Source of the DNA: Geobacter sp. AOG1 | GTDB lineage: Bacteria > Desulfobacterota > Desulfuromonadia > Geobacterales > Geobacteraceae | NCBI RefSeq assembly: GCF_019972315.1 | Contig: NZ_BLIZ01000001.1 | Coordinates: forward strand, 942,513-1,006,512 | Reading direction: 5' to 3' | Length of the DNA stretch: 64,000 bases | Part shown: positions 1,895 through 52,936 of the stretch, in pieces | Numbering within the stretch: the stretch's first letter is position 1 | Layout of the letters: each line of letters begins with the position of its first letter | The notes under the pieces: generated by a model | What the model was told of the DNA's origin: nothing | What the model saw: only the letters and a program-made list of their open reading frames with translations | Databases searched by the model: none | Made by a program: the position numbers and the translations under genes

Positions 1895-2100
1895 TATAGT
1901 GTAACTAGGTAGCTACCTGTAACAACCTGCAACAGACCGCACGAAAAGGAGGGCGATACTATCGAAGATACTCCACCGGGCTGTAACCTGAATATGAGCG
2001 AAGTATCGACCCGGCAGTAATCGAGCCGGAAATGACCCTTGAAAAGGGAACGCGGAAGTTAACAAAAAGAGGCCCGCCGAAATTGGCGGGCCTTTCATTT
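1895..2100 (+). ncRNA. Candidate structured small RNA ending in an intrinsic terminator
   Basis: No protein gene explains this gene-free stretch. It contains a weak -10-like TATAGT (1895-1900), then several potential stems. GGGCGATACT near 1952 can pair with AGTATCGACCC near 2004 (one bulge), a CCGGC/GCCGG hairpin follows, then CCCTT/AAGGG near 2036-2050, and finally a strong GC hairpin plus T-run at 2070-2100. The inferred transcript would be about 190 nt. It did not match the motifs of tRNA, SRP RNA, RNase P or the common riboswitches that I could recall. The neighbouring hemE is convergent, so this is not an obvious leader. Identity and even strand are uncertain. Confidence 0.3.
2070..2100 (+). 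terminator. Intrinsic terminator, possibly bidirectional
   Basis: A 9-bp perfect GC-rich stem AGGCCCGCC (2070-2078) / GGCGGGCCT (2085-2093) has a 6-nt loop and is followed by TTTCATTTTT on the plus strand. On the minus strand it is followed by CTTTTTGTT, so it could also stop hemE read-through. Confidence 0.75.
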
Positions 2101-2115
2101 TTATCGCAACGATTA

Positions 2116-2153: not shown

Positions 2154-2213
2154 CTGAACGCCTGTAGCGAACTCATTTCCCCTCCGGAGCTTCCGGATAG
2201 GCACTATACTTTA

Positions 2214-2336
2214 TACCAATTTCAGATCAAGGATGAAATCAAGGCGGCGAGGATTGAGGCGACGCAGACGTACAGGCAGTACGTTGAGGAGCCGAAGACG
2301 AGCCAACGCAGATAGCGCCTTGATGTGGAATTGGTA
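2214..2336 (-). repeat. 123-bp palindromic element, copy 1 (abuts the hemE stop)
   Basis: The outer arms at 2214-2232 and 2318-2336 are complementary at 17 of 19 positions. A perfect ACGTAC/GTACGT hairpin (2268-2284) sits at the centre. Read in the direction of hemE, it begins at the base immediately after the stop codon. It resembles the element at 50514-50636 in length, central hairpin and shared internal blocks (ATCTGCG, TTCGGC, CGTACTG, CTCG, CGCCTTG). This is probably a dispersed palindromic (REP/MITE-like) element that may also act as a 3'-end hairpin. Confidence 0.65.
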
Positions 2337-3359
2337 TTACTTCTGCGACAACCGATGCACGCATTCAACCATGAAGATCGCGTTCTCCGGCGGAACGGTG
2401 GGGAGGATGCCGTGGCCGAGATTGAAGATGTGGCCGGGACGGTCGGCATTCTCGTCCAGGACCCGCTTCACCTCCGCCTCGATCACCTCTTTCGGCGCGT
2501 AAAGAACGGTCGGGTCCAGGTTCCCCTGCACCGCCATCTTCGTTCCGAGGACATCACGGGCCTTGCCGAGATTGACGTGCCAGTCAAGTCCCATGACGTC
2601 ACCACCCGCCTTCTGCACGGTATCGAGCATGGTGGCCGCCCCCTTGACGAAGTGGATGACCGGCACATGGGTCCGGTTCAGGCCGTTGATCAGTTTCGTC
2701 GTGTAGGGGAGAACGAATTTTTCGTAATCGGAAGGGGAAAGGACCCCTCCCCAGGTGTCGAAGATCTGGATCGCCTGGGCACCCGCCTTGATCTGGGCAT
2801 TCAGGTACTCCATGTCCATCATGGTCACCTTCTCCATGAGGGCATGATAGACGTCGGGCGCAGCGTACATCATCCGCTTGATGTTGGCCCAGTCCTTGGA
2901 GCCCTTACCTTCCACCATGTAGCAGCAAAGGGTGAAGGGGGCACCGCCGAAGCCGATGAGCGGCACCTTGGTGGCGAGCTCACGGCGCAGTATCTTGATC
3001 GTATCAAGGACATAGGGAACGTCCTGCTCCATCTGGGGTATACGGAGCGCCTCCACATCGGCCATGGTCCGGATCGGATGCTCGAAGACCGGCCCGGGGA
3101 CGAAGTCGAGCTTCATTCCCATCGGCTCCACCGGCGTGAGGATATCGGAGAAGAGGATGGCGGCGTCCACGCCCAGGATGTCCACCGGCTGGATAGATAC
3201 CTCGGCAGCCAGCTCCGGGGTCTTGCAGAGTTCCAGAAAGGTGCACTTGCTCCGCACCCGCATATAGTCAGGGAGATAGCGGCCCGCCTGGCGCATGAGC
3301 CAGACCGGGGTCCGGTCGACCGGCTTCCCCCAGCAGGCATCGAGAAAACGTGTATTCAT
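2337..3359 (-). CDS. hemE: Uroporphyrinogen decarboxylase
   Basis: HemE removes four carboxyl groups from uroporphyrinogen III to give coproporphyrinogen III in the cytosol. The 340-residue length is normal. Near the N-terminus, residues PVWLMRQAGRYLPDY carry the invariant R-Q-A-G-R substrate-anchoring motif, and FSDILTP follows with the active-site Asp; GFGGAPFTL also matches the family. The start is MNTRFL, with GAGGAGGG upstream. A SPASM radical SAM protein related to heme enzymes lies 188 bp upstream on the same strand, and hemG is about 52 kb away. A palindromic element starts directly after the stop codon. Confidence 0.97.
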   Translation of the reverse strand: MNTRFLDACWGKPVDRTPVWLMRQAGRYLPDYMRVRSKCTFLELCKTPELAAEVSIQPVDILGVDAAILFSDILTPVEPMGMKLDFVPGPVFEHPIRTMADVEALRIPQMEQDVPYVLDTIKILRRELATKVPLIGFGGAPFTLCCYMVEGKGSKDWANIKRMMYAAPDVYHALMEKVTMMDMEYLNAQIKAGAQAIQIFDTWGGVLSPSDYEKFVLPYTTKLINGLNRTHVPVIHFVKGAATMLDTVQKAGGDVMGLDWHVNLGKARDVLGTKMAVQGNLDPTVLYAPKEVIEAEVKRVLDENADRPGHIFNLGHGILPTVPPENAIFMVECVHRLSQK

Positions 3360-3547
3360 ATAAAACCCTCCTCAGGAAATAACGTTGTCGTTTTTGATCT
3401 GACCCGGGAACGCGAGATTTTGCCCAGATTGTCGCACCCGCAGAAGCGACCGCGGAGGCGTGGTACCCAAACATCGGGCATAAACAGCGCCACGTCGCAC
3501 AAGGAAGCGACGAGGACGGCGGCAAGATGGGCGGAAGATCGCGTTCC

Positions 3548-4618
3548 TTACGCCTTCTTCTGAAGGCGTATCGGGACGTAGTTGCAGAACGGTTCTTCTT
3601 CCATATAATCCCCCGTCACCGCATCGGCCCGCGCCCGGCAGCCGCCACAGACGTTCAGATATTCGCACTGACCGCACTTCCCCTTGTACGCCTTGAAGTC
3701 GCGCAGGTCCCGGAATATCTCCGAGTTCTCCCAGATCTCCCGGAAGGGGGTCTGCTTCACGTTCCCCGCGGTGCGGTGGAAGTAGGAGCAGGGCTTGACG
3801 TTGCCGAAGCAGTCGATGAGGCAGATGGTCTGGGCGGCGATGCATCCCTTGCCGCCTCCGGTGGAGAAGGTGAGGGAGCGACGCTCGAATTTGGTCCCTT
3901 CGGCCTTGGCCTTCTGGGGAACGATCCGGTAGTAGTGGGGGGCGCAGGTGGGGCGCATGAGGATGTCGTCCTCCAGCTTCTCCTGCTCATAGTGCCAGTC
4001 CAGAATCTCCTCGTAATCTTCCTTGGAGATGAGCTCACTCATGATCTCCTCGCCTCGGCCGGTGGGGACGATCATGAACATGTACCAGGCAGTGGCCCCC
4101 AGGGACTTGGCCACCTTGAAGGTATTGGCTATGTCGTGCTGGTTCCTTTTGGTAAAAGAGGAATTGATGAGGAACTTCTGGCCATGCTTGCGGAACAGTT
4201 CGGCGGCCCGGACCACCCCGTCAAAGGAGCCGGGGCACTGGCGGAAGTTGTCGTGCACCTCTGCGGTGGAGCCGTCCAGGGAGAGGGAGACCATCTTGAT
4301 ATCCGCCTTCTTCATCTGTTCGCAGATCTCGTCGGTCACCAGCGCCCCGTTGGTGGCCATGCACATGCGCAGCCCCAGGGAGGTACCGTAACCGGCCAAC
4401 TCGAAGATGTCCTTTCTGAGCAACGGCTCGCCGCCGGAGAGGACCACCACCGGCTTGGAGAAGTCGGCGATCTCCTTCAGGAGCTTTTTCCCCTCGTCGG
4501 TGGTGAAGTCCCCCTCGGAAGAAGTCAAGTCCGACGAGCAGCGGCAGTGGACACACTTCAGGTTGCATTTCTGGGTGGTTTCCCAGGCGATCCATTTGGG
4601 AATAAATTCTTCAGCCAT
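3548..4618 (-). CDS. Radical SAM/SPASM protein of the NirJ/AhbC/AhbD type
   Basis: This 356-residue protein has an N-terminal radical SAM core with the CNLKCVHC (CxxxCxxC) cluster motif, SGGEPLLR, and [10 protein letters not shown]-terminal SPASM region has the Cys pattern C...[17 protein letters not shown]...PFC for auxiliary Fe-S clusters. This pattern and the EEPFCNYVP ending are those of tetrapyrrole-modifying enzymes: NirJ (heme d1), AhbC and AhbD (siroheme-to-heme route). Its position next to hemE supports a tetrapyrrole role, but which reaction it performs cannot be decided. The ATG at 4618 is preferred because GGAG is about 6 bp upstream; a TTG at 4630 is an alternative. A candidate promoter sits at 4686-4715. 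Confidence 0.85.
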
Positions 4619-48836: not shown

Positions 48837-50513
48837 ATGGAAACGACCCACAACGACAACACTGGCCTGCGCATCATCCCCCTCGGTGGGTTGGGGGAGA
48901 TCGGGCTCAACATGGCGGTCTTCGAGTACGGTGATGACATCATCGTGGTCGACTGCGGACTCATGTTTCCCGAGCCCAACATGCTTGGCATCGATCTGGT
49001 GATCCCCGACATCACGTACCTGCGGGAGCGGGTTGACCGGGTGCGGGGGATTTTTCTTACCCATGGCCACGAAGACCATATCGGTGCGCTTCCCTATATC
49101 CTTCAGGAACTGAATCCTCCTATCTACGGTACCGCCCTGACTCTCGGCTTCGTCAAGGAAAAGCTCAAGGAGTTCGATCTCGAAGAACGGGTGGACCTGC
49201 GGGTGGTGAAGCCCCGGCAGAGGGTAGACACTGGGCTCTTCGAGATCGAGTTTGTCAGGGTCGCCCACTCCATCGTGGATGGCTGCGCCCTGGCGATCCG
49301 TACTCCCGAGGGGGTGGTGATCCACACCGGCGACTTCAAGCTCGACCAGACCCCGGTTGACGGGGAGCTGACCGACCTGGTAACCCTGGCCCGCTACGGT
49401 GAAGAGGGGGTCCTGGCGCTCATGGCCGACTCCACCAACGTGGAACGGGAAGGCTACACCCTCTCCGAAGCCCTGGTGGGGGAGGCCTTCGACGACATTT
49501 TCCCCAAATGTTCGGGGCGGATCATCGTGGCGGCCTTTTCCAGCAACATCCACCGGGTCAGGCAGGTGATGGTCTCGGCCGCACGGTCGGGACGCAAGGT
49601 GCTCCTGAACGGCCGTTCCATGATCGCCAACGTCCAGATCGCCCGGGAACTGGGGTATCTGACCGTTCCCGATGATCTCCTCATCGATCTGAAGGAGCTT
49701 CCCCGTCTCCCTAAAGAGGAGATCTGCATGATTACGACGGGTTCCCAGGGGGAACCGATGAGCGCCCTCACCCGGATCGCCATGGACGATCACAAGCAGA
49801 TCAAGCTGGAGGAGGGGGACACGGTGATCCTCTCTTCCCGCTTCATTCCGGGTAACGAGAAGACCATCTCCGACTTGATCAACCACCTCTACCGGCGAGG
49901 TGCCGAGGTCTATCACGAGAAGGTCTCGGAGGTGCATGTCTCCGGCCATGCCAGCCAGGAAGAGCTGAAGCTGATGCAGAACATCGTTCGCCCCCGCTAC
50001 TTCATCCCGGTGCACGGAGAGTACCGTCACCTGGTGAAACATGCCCAGCTGGCCCAGAAGGTGGGAGTCCCTCGGGAACGGTGCATCCTTGCAGTGAACG
50101 GCGACGTTATCACCTTCGCCGATGGCAGCGGGGCCATCACCGGCAAGGTGGAAACCGGTCGGGTCTTCGTGGACGGGAAGGGGATCGGTGACGTGGGAGA
50201 GGTGGTGCTCAAGGACCGCAAGCACCTCTCCCAGGACGGCATGGTGGTGGTCATTATCGGGATCAACCAGACCAGCGGCGAGATCATCTATGGTCCTGAC
50301 ATCGTCTCCCGTGGCTTCGTGTTCGAGGACGAGAGTCAGGAGTATCTGGACGAGGCGCGAAAGGTGGTGGAAGACACCCTGGCCCTCACCAATGTAACGG
50401 TCATGGCCGACTGGGGCGAGGTGCGGCAGGAGGTGCGACGGGTACTCCGGCGCTTTTTCAACAAGACCATCGAGCGGAGGCCGGTGATTTTGCCGCTCAT
50501 CTTGGAAATGTAG
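48837..50513 (+). CDS. rnj: Ribonuclease J
   Basis: RNase J is a metallo-beta-lactamase/beta-CASP RNase with 5'-3' exo- and endonuclease activity in mRNA turnover and rRNA maturation. The 558 residues include [13 protein letters not shown] (HxHxDH zinc motif, about residues 75-80) and HTGDFKLD. Also present are the beta-CASP block [11 protein letters not shown]...[24 protein letters not shown] and the late [13 protein letters not shown] His motif. Length is typical. A 123-bp palindromic element begins at the base after its stop codon. Confidence 0.96.
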
Positions 50514-50636
50514 GACGGCTTTGCCAAAAGTCCATCTGCGGCGTTGCGCTTCGGCCTGCGTCGCTGCGGCGTACTGATGTACGCCTCACTCCTCGGCCTC
50601 GCGCGCCTTGCAGCTGGAGCTTTTTGCTGTGCCGTC
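50514..50636 (+). repeat. 123-bp palindromic element, copy 2 (abuts the rnj stop)
   Basis: Outer arms (50514-50534 and 50615-50636) are complementary with a few mismatches. A perfect GGCGTAC/GTACGCC hairpin with TGAT loop (50568-50585) lies at the centre. It starts directly after the rnj TAG and ends 20 bp before the ftsK start. Length, orientation to the preceding gene and several internal blocks match the element at 2214-2336. Confidence 0.7.
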
Positions 50637-50656: not shown

Positions 50657-52936
50657 ATGGACGAAAAAGTCGACAAAAAGGAAAAACTGAAGAAAGAGAT
50701 CCAGGGGATGGCGCTGGGTGCAGTGGGGCTGTTCGTTCTGATTGCCCTCCTTTCCTACCGGACCGACGACCTCTCCTTCAACAGCTTCTCCTCCGATGCC
50801 CGTGTCCGCAACTTCGGCGGGCGGCTCGGGGCTGAGATGTCGGACCTGCTCCTCCAGACCACCGGTCTGGCCGGCTACCTGGTCCCCGGCGCACTCCTCT
50901 TCCTCGCCTACCTCTTCCTCCGCTTCAAGGAGGTGAAGTGGCGTGCCTACAAGTGGTTCGCCTACGCGGGGCTCATCGTCTCCCTTTCGTCTCTCTTCGC
51001 ATTCAACCTGGAATTCACATCCCTCTTCGGCCAGCGGGTCCCGACGGGCGGGGCCGTGGGATACCAGACCGCGTCGGTTCTCAAGAGTTTCCTCGGCATG
51101 CCGGGAGCGCTGCTGCTTCTGCTCCCCATGCTGGCCGCGTCGATCATGATCCTCTCCCGCTTCTCCTTCGTCCTGTTCGCCGACTGGTGGCTCGGGGCAC
51201 TGGGGGCCAGGTGGGCACGCTTCTGGGAGCGGCGGGCGCTTAACCGGGAGCTGATGGAGAAAGAGCCAAAACCGGCCGAGGCGGGGGCTCCGGTGATAAA
51301 GCCGCTCCCCGTGCATGTGCCGACTCCTCCGCCGCTCCTGAAGAAGGAGAAGAAAAAGGAAGAGGAGAAGACCAAACCGGTCCAGGAGATGTTCGAATTC
51401 GTGAAGAGCGACGGCGCCTATCAGACTCCCCCCCTGTCCCTTCTCGATACGCCGCCGGCGACGGAAAAGCGGGTCGACAAGGAAGCCCTGACCATGAATG
51501 CCCGGCTCCTGGAGAAGAAGCTCAAGGACTTCGGCGTGGACGGGGAGGTGGTGGAGATCTGTCCCGGCCCCGTCGTCACCATGTACGAATTCGCCCCCGG
51601 ACCGGGGGTGAAAGTGAGCCGGATCGCCGGACTGGCCGACGACCTCTCCATGGCCCTGCAGGCCCTTTCCATCCGGATCATTGCCCCGATCCCCGGCAAG
51701 GGGGTGGTGGGGATCGAGCTTCCCAACCGGGACCGGGAGATGGTTTTCCTGAAGGAGATATTTGCCAGCGAGGAGTTCCATCGCGGCAAGCTCAAGCTTC
51801 CCATGGCTCTCGGCAAGGATGTGGCCGGCGCACCGCTGGTGACCGACCTGGCCCGCATGCCACACCTGCTGGTGGCCGGCGCCACCGGTTCCGGCAAGTC
51901 CGTTTCCATCAACACCATGATTCTCTCCCTCCTCTATACCGCGACCCCCCGTGACGTGCGGATCATCATGGTCGATCCCAAGATGCTGGAACTCTCCATC
52001 TACGAGGGGATTCCCCACCTGCTCCTTCCCGTAGTCACCAACCCGAAGAAGGCCGCCCTGGCGCTACGGTGGGCGGTGGAAGAGATGGGGCGCCGCTACC
52101 GGCTCATGGCCGACAAGAGCGTGCGCAACATCGACTCCTATAACAAGGCGCTGGAGCGGGAGGAGAAGGAACAGGCTGACAACCGGGCACGTGAAACTGT
52201 TGTGGTTGACGAGGTGGAGGAGGTTGCCGACAGCGACGAGGCGGCCATCCAGGCGTTCCTCGATCGGGAGGAGGCGCTGGAGCATGGCCATCTCCCCTAC
52301 ATCGTGGTGATCGTGGACGAACTGGCCGACCTGATGATGGTGGCGGGGCGGGAGCTGGAGGAGTCCATCGCCCGGCTGGCCCAAATGGCCCGGGCCGCCG
52401 GCATCCACCTCATCCTGGCCACCCAGCGGCCGTCCGTGGACGTCATCACCGGCCTCATCAAGGCGAACTTCCCGGCCCGCATCTCCTTCCAGGTCTCCAG
52501 CAAGACCGACTCCCGTACCATCCTCGATTGCAACGGCGCAGAGGCGCTTCTGGGGGCCGGCGACATGCTCTTCCTCCCCCCCGGCACTGCCAAGCTCATG
52601 CGCTCCCACGGTGCCTTCGTCTCCGACGCCGAGGTGCAGCGGGTGGTGGAGTTCCTGAAAAAGCAGGGGAAACCGGTCTACGACAAGTCGATCCTGGAGA
52701 TGAAGGCGGGAGGCGAAAGTGGCGGCGATGCCGAAGAGGAGCTTGACGAGCGCTACGATGATGCAGTGGCGCTGGTGGCCGAGACCCGGCAGGCATCCAT
52801 CTCCATGATCCAGCGGCGCTTGCGGATCGGCTACAACCGGGCGGCCCGCATCATCGAGAAGATGGAACAGGAAGGGATTGTCGCTCCCAGCGACGGGACG
52901 AGCAAGCCGCGTGAAGTGTTCATAAACAAGCTTTAG
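50657..52936 (+). CDS. ftsK: DNA translocase FtsK/SpoIIIE
   Basis: FtsK pumps chromosomal DNA through the division septum and aligns the terminus. The 759 residues have four N-terminal helices (about 17-190) and a short charged linker, much shorter than in E. coli. An alpha-beta motor follows with Walker [16 protein letters not shown] and Walker [13 protein letters not shown], then the RecA-like block [21 protein letters not shown]. The C-terminal winged-helix gamma domain ([25 protein letters not shown]) reads polar KOPS DNA. I start it at MDEKVDKK (50657), since the upstream frame falls in the palindromic element. Confidence 0.96.

Follow-up and report, generated by a model that had tools for sequence, protein, structure and literature searches.

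Hairpin Elements behind hemE, rnj and a Third Gene End

The window, by which we mean the whole 64,000-nucleotide stretch of Geobacter sp. AOG1 DNA under analysis, carries three palindromic elements located at gene ends (Table 1). Two of them had been pointed out in a sequence-only reading of the window as 123-bp palindromes starting right after stop codons, and the sequence bears this out for both hemE and rnj. Their hairpins are indeed centred on GTAC, and long imperfect outer arms are present as described (the 20-nt arms of the hemE element are 90% complementary). The two elements, in which several internal blocks were said to recur, have a GTAC-centred core that is common to the hemE element (class A in what follows), the rnj element (class B) and two further classes, C and E. 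Their equal length holds as well, but it is partly a coincidence, given that class E elements mostly measure ~119–125 bp, or ~146 bp when the loop is longer. The third copy, absent from the sequence-only reading, starts directly behind a TAA stop at 3550–3548. The gene for an FtsK-type DNA translocase starts 20 nt after the rnj element.

Table 1. Genes and sequence elements discussed in the text, in coordinates of the window.
Feature	Coordinates	Strand	Evidence
Intrinsic-terminator-like hairpin GGCCCGCC/GGCGGGCC then TTTTT, downstream of the class A element	2060..2103	-	Sequence and hairpin listing
TAA repeated behind the element, read as target-site duplication of the hemE stop (2337-2339)	2211..2213	-	Matching 3-bp flanks in 11/13 class A copies
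Class A element, TACCAATT..AATTGGTA, 123 bp	2214..2336	-	13 genome copies at 95-100%; site empty in three congeners
hemE (uroporphyrinogen decarboxylase)	2337..3359	-	TIGR01464 E 4e-132; stop TAA 2339-2337
Class E-like element, GGAACGCG..CGCGTTCC, long-loop variant	3407..3547	-	Model R2, 29.1 bits at 3402-3549; sequence
rnj (RNase J family)	48837..50513	+	TIGR00649 E 3e-187; stop TAG
Class B element, outer arms GACGGC..GCCGTC	50514..50636	+	Model R1, 72.1 bits; genome relatives; orthologous sites differ
FtsK-type DNA translocase gene	50657..52936	+	NF007615 E 3e-173, under the model's curated cut-off

Measured against shuffled sequences, the RNA folding z of the hemE and rnj elements was -4.2 and -4.4, respectively, for the mRNA strand and -8.6 and -6.1 for its complement. 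Both elements fold more than chance on both strands, and clearly better on the complement of the mRNA. Rfam 15 gave no match at gathering score in the window, nor in 13 loci; one match elsewhere, far under its gathering score, was dismissed as chance.

The suggestion that such elements are terminators has lost ground. A canonical terminator is found further on behind hemE (2060–2103) and is kept in hemE orthologues without the class A element, and most copies in the genome lie between co-directional genes. Read by eye in the direction of the mRNA, the class E flanks contain no U-tract following the hairpin; in class B, a TTTTT lies within the arms.

Census and Classes in the Genome

Far from being confined to the window, the elements have about 100 related copies in the genome. 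A blastn search with the hemE element returned 13 copies at 95–100% together with fragments, and the rnj element returned a more diverged set of relatives. The covariance search that the sequence-only reading had proposed was run with a model of the common core (R1), built from an alignment of 21 cores, 20 from Geobacter sp. AOG1 and one from a Trichlorobacter lovleyi plasmid. It gave 84 genome matches at E<=1, the weaker of which turned out to form another class, E, with arms like GAAACGCGCCTTTTCC..GGAAAAATCGCGTTTC. A second model, made for class E (R2), gave 101 matches at E<=0.1, many of them also found by R1 and including other classes and some opposite-strand repeats. The 102 copies examined below consist of 82 of the 84 R1 matches (all but the weak matches at 308622 and 2161355) and 20 non-overlapping R2 matches, while weaker R2 matches, the window copy at 3407–3547 among them, stand outside the statistics. 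Assigned by short motifs, these copies comprise 13 of class A, 11 of class B, 7 of class C and 71 of class E, the last being a remainder class that includes a few odd copies.

The long-loop variant GTTTATGCCCGATGTTTGGGT is common to classes B and E (loci L131, L132 and L037, and the window copy at 3402–3549), which, judging by these sequences, may be read as a sign of exchange between classes. A separate repeat of ~160 bp is located behind argH (L120:8600-8765, genome 1063599-1063764) and has many copies in three congeners.

Class A as a MITE

Among the roles considered in the sequence-only reading, that of a MITE fits class A, which shows terminal inverted repeats (TACCAATT..AATTGGTA), a 3-bp duplication and empty sites. 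Equal 3-bp flanks, TTA, TAA or TTT, accompany 11 of its 13 copies. For six of the 13, the joined flanks are found unbroken in a congener; adding the hemE site, which is empty in all three, brings the number of such cases to seven. The hemE copy itself reads as a MITE insertion, because the duplicated TAA is the hemE stop codon. Four class A copies are located exactly behind a called TAA stop. In the flanks of classes B and E, inspection by eye found no consistent direct repeat, and thus no target-site duplication is visible there.

Class A was present in 50 of the 97 genomes searched at E<=1e-10, Geobacter sp. AOG1 included. The plasmid collection yielded one match only, a class A-like copy on Trichlorobacter lovleyi pGLOV01 that starts immediately after the stop codon of a DUF2149 gene; the phage collection yielded none. 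No autonomous partner IS with class A ends was found in the genomes G021, G073 and G094. A 2-kb candidate partner in G021, bounded by terminal inverted repeats, turned out to be a class A copy that had received another element with a long open frame, probably a transposase. At L474:1263-2648 (G021), a class A copy contains an open frame of 461 aa, again probably a transposase. A REP-associated transposase was looked for as well, and no Y1 transposase was detected at E<=1e-5 either in Geobacter sp. AOG1 or in G064, a genome with 39 class E matches.

Position and Orientation Relative to Stop Codons

Tabulating the distances to stop codons, as the sequence-only reading had advised, revealed a strong positional bias. 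Neither of the two outcomes named there as refuting, a lack of further copies or a lack of positional bias, was thus obtained. The core is located 13–28 nt behind a sense stop in 73 of the 102 copies, with the arm mostly 0–5 nt behind the stop. Because the genes were called with a script that relies on codon usage as learned from the window, and not with a standard annotator, the calls lack some short stop-adjacent genes. Among the 89 non-A copies, 69 lie behind a sense stop and three at an antisense stop at the other end. By a slightly narrower rule, 67 of the 89 are near a stop, compared with a fraction of 0.375 expected under uniform placement in the same spacers (p 5e-13); such placement predicts ~24/64 copies that close. 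When class E copies were taken each from a different relative, 17 of 23 obeyed the stop rule, the six non-conforming ones including at least one misplaced by the gene-calling script. The neighbouring genes are co-directional for 52 of the 67 copies. The distance on the right-hand side is loose, with a median of 41.5 nt to the first possible start in these 52 cases and values of 25–1163 nt in 10 of the 12 convergent ones.

In other lineages, the stop rule is less evident. Among 76 copies fetched by exact pattern, an open frame of at least 80 codons ends near the element in 40, in 15 cases at -1 to 6 nt and in 22 at 10–15 nt. One subclass in these lineages begins with AGTTTCC and therefore tends to carry its own TAG.

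It had been proposed that either insertion targets the stop codon or the element supplies the 3' end of the gene. Insertion targeting is supported for class A, in which 3 bp (TTA/TAA) are duplicated and the hemE stop is one of the two copies, while the supply of a 3' end remains mostly unsupported. In classes B and E the stop is native, since orthologues without the element have their stop at the same codon. TAG is over-represented among the stops preceding elements (34/67 vs 56/211). In 16 cases, a gene with an element and its empty orthologue end in different stops; 11 times TAG belongs to the filled gene, and once to the empty gene, with another stop in the filled one (sign test on 11 vs 1, p 0.006). 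This excess of TAG in filled genes is a minor sign in favour of the element supplying the 3' end.

Structure and Strand Polarity

What is conserved in these elements is the shape rather than the letters, and it is conserved on the complement of the mRNA. In an alignment of 30 class E sequences (A5), read on the complement strand with the fold of one of the 30 as the secondary structure, 25 of 43 pairs have changed on both sides. In the class E arms 92.9% of cells pair, vs 37–52% when the arms are slid by 1–3 columns, and none of 500 shuffles reached this pairing. The complement folds better than the mRNA strand in 100 of the 102 copies.

The mismatches point to the same strand. When the two halves were aligned by Watson–Crick pairing only, 87 A.C and 21 G.U were counted on the mRNA strand in the outer 12 columns. 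Over the whole element the numbers are closer (292 A.C vs 246 G.U, p 0.05), and hence the polarity signal lies in the arms. Class E mismatches include 676 pyrimidine-pyrimidine vs 50 purine-purine. In other lineages, the complement folds better in 78 of 80 copies and the outer arms hold 25 A.C vs 10 G.U, but whole elements hold 155 A.C vs 213 G.U, which counts against the complement-strand reading there. As the copies are related, none of these tallies consists of independent cases.

Gain, Loss and Class Exchange among Congeners

Orthologous places in three congeners were found with a joined query of gene ends. The 105 comparisons in which the stop lies at or near the same codon, not independent of each other since the congeners are related, comprise 46 empty sites, 32 filled by the same class, 11 filled by a different class and 16 filled but unclassified. 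A different class occupies seven of 50 orthologous sites. By chance, ~0.8 such sites would be expected (Poisson p 2e-5; with a mean of 2, p would be 0.005), an expectation based on a rough guess of gene number.

The rnj locus illustrates such exchange. Directly behind its stop, Geobacter sp. AOG1 carries class B, two congeners (G002 and G003) carry another palindromic sequence, and the third (G001) has an E element nested between B-type outer arms, GACGGCTTCGCC and GAAGCCGTC. The arg/dap cluster of Geobacter sp. AOG1 holds six class E copies, located behind argB, the ornithine carbamoyltransferase gene, argG, two further genes and dapB. In the congeners, some of these sites are empty and others have copies holding repeats nested in the apical part; the gene order stays constant while the elements come and go. 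Overall, mobility is observed as gain and loss, and in class A also as duplication, alongside conserved pairing, position, orientation and the exchange of classes at one site.

Several further observations concern these gene ends. Nested inserts in the apical part were seen in G001, G002 and G021; two further repeats (GACTCGGCCTG.. and CCCTCACCCGGCC..) are nested apically in class E and A elements at L242/L243 (G001, G002) and L479/L480 (G021). Empty orthologous sites (L314, L262, L274, L344) often have other short repeats behind the stop, namely GGGGACCGGGGACC, GTTCAAGGTTC, ACCGCAGAGGACACGGAG and GACGCAAAGGCGCAAAGACGC, so that the place just behind a stop may attract repeats in general. At genome position 2413413 (L036), a class B copy is found where the orthologues have overlapping genes. 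There, the downstream start seems to have been rebuilt behind the element, with CATGCT on both sides.

Discussion

Tentatively, we favour the possibility that these elements are a superfamily of non-autonomous mobile hairpin repeats of ~120 bp, which enter stop codons or hairpins already existing behind them. The members of such a superfamily would have the GTAC-centred core in common and differ by class in their outer arms. Class A would spread as a MITE through a cut at TTA/TAA with a 3-bp duplication; its flanks and empty sites are observed, and a transposase, perhaps an IS5- or Harbinger-like one making TWA duplications, is presumed. Because of this mode of cutting, a TAA stop would be an ideal class A target, rebuilt on insertion. 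Classes B, C and E may instead move into a hairpin that stood behind the stop before them, or take over its interior, while the outer arms are kept. Such entry would lead to the mixing of arms and cores, to different classes in different species at one stop, and to nested cases such as rnj in G001. The folded complement strand would be the form recognised by the mobilising enzyme or a host factor, as it is for integron attC sites, and opposite-facing copies would be lost or never made. The host would not need to gain from any of this; a benefit to the host gene is possible.

Some points speak against this superfamily of mobile hairpins. No transposase turned up in the searches described above; neither a RAYT nor an integron integrase is required. 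Copies of other lineages adhere less closely to the stop rule. A DNA-level mechanism alone does not recognise that TAG, TGA or TAA is in frame, and the strand polarity could stem from antisense RNA. Entry into post-stop hairpins is suggested by a small number of nested cases, and not every empty orthologue has a hairpin at that place. One may go further and picture a mobile hairpin that is recognised by the shape of one DNA strand, spreads in trans and homes to stops and post-stop hairpins. Gene ends would then be nested landing sites in which hairpin replaces hairpin, by an attC-like principle without an integron, an integrase or cassettes. We regard this extended version as distinctly doubtful.

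The strongest rival, rather unlikely in our estimation, is that the elements are functional mRNA 3'-end or intercistronic elements, which stabilise the upstream message, serve as a processing site or tune operon polarity. The sense orientation and the fixed distance to the stop would be expected of such elements, a hairpin is predicted in the mRNA strand too, elements lie within the arg/dap gene cluster, and the different classes at the same gene ends suggest interchangeability. However, the mRNA strand folds worse in 100 of the 102 copies, and the outer arms prefer A.C over G.U by 87 to 21, the opposite of selection on an mRNA hairpin; both findings make this role less likely. Moreover, 46 of the 105 orthologues have nothing of the kind.

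The strand polarity, the covariation, and the purine-purine internal loops and G.U pairs on the complement would also suit a structured antisense RNA, or a barrier that keeps antisense transcription from running into the gene through its 3' end. We consider this improbable, as 52 of the 67 copies lie between co-directional genes, where the complement is without a gene of its own, and no Rfam match was obtained. Less probable again, and already unlikely, is that the elements are neutral passengers that insert anywhere and survive only between the stop and the next ribosome-binding site. Some spacers do leave only that place (at 2118172, for instance, the empty orthologues read TGA-GGAGG), but the orientation bias of 69 to 3, the loose right-hand distances, the covarying arms and a stop adjacency beyond uniform placement are at odds with it.

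Two other ideas carry very little weight. A hairpin that starts at the stop, as well as the two 123-bp window elements being open in frame by eye, might evoke stop-codon readthrough or recoding, but we give this next to no credence, as the 73 stop-adjacent copies show no in-frame enrichment (30, 27 and 25 open in the three frames). Equally far-fetched are dispersed true attC sites of integrons. Those sites are likewise imperfect palindromes behind a stop, in sense orientation, whose complement folds and whose shape is conserved over sequence, and they have the invariant boxes RYYYAAC and GTTRRRY. Here, the outer AAC/GTT letters are not fixed but covary (A5), there are no cassettes, the gene order stays while the elements come and go, and no integron integrase scored over the cut-off in Geobacter sp. 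AOG1 or G003 (best match in the former 91.6 bits, cut-off 265).

The mobile superfamily that we favour may also be set against other repeat families. Class A is like MITEs in its terminal inverted repeats, 3-bp target duplication, near-identical non-coding copies and empty sites; it differs in that no partner IS was found and in being one class of a superfamily whose other classes lack a target duplication. ERIC and REP/BIME repeats resemble our elements in being intergenic palindromes; no Y1 transposase was detected in Geobacter sp. AOG1. In Yersinia, according to a review, mRNA decay can be influenced by ERIC copies inserted at gene 3' ends (PMC10969869). The same source describes Chunjie, a MITE of G. 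uraniireducens that lies in an operon and has size variants of 178–235 bp; compared by description, class A is likewise a Geobacter MITE with size variants, but mostly of 119–123 bp. IS1272, a full IS in Staphylococcus, targets inverted repeats and makes no target duplication (PMC5678879); its inverted-repeat-replacing transposition offers a model, by analogy, for the exchange of arms and cores here. In G. bemidjiensis, multicopy sequences share intergenic regions often enough for their insertion to be called non-random (PMC2996986). We further drew on PMC3543383.

The closest link is to G. metallireducens, for which 24 "predicted short RNAs" (Gmet_R1###) were reported in 2009 (PMC2700814). 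Class E matches them in the central palindrome GRCGTAGCGCTGCTACGCC, found in class E (A2) and in the class B copies L038 and L041, and in the same place between dapB and dapL, where the class E copy E6 (L120:12292) is located; on these sequence grounds, class E is most likely this very family. The Gmet_R1### family likewise occurs at lysine and arginine genes. It was described as intergenic, for example in the 5' regions of genes, and the accessible part of that description mentions no stop-codon rule, strand polarity or class exchange. As we did not find these three features stated in the literature searched (supplements excepted), we take them to be new.

Overall, the genome of Geobacter sp. 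AOG1 holds about 100 copies of these elements, mostly at gene ends, and many are found in its relatives, which casts the "predicted short RNAs" annotated in Geobacter since 2009 in a different light. Why hairpins sit behind stops is a testable question, and the strand polarity should make it possible to distinguish cleanly between mRNA, antisense RNA and single-stranded DNA. Should the stop rule be a matter of targeting, these elements would show how DNA can be inserted into an operon at one of its safest positions; should it be a matter of function, they would amount to a class of 3'-end elements that has been overlooked.
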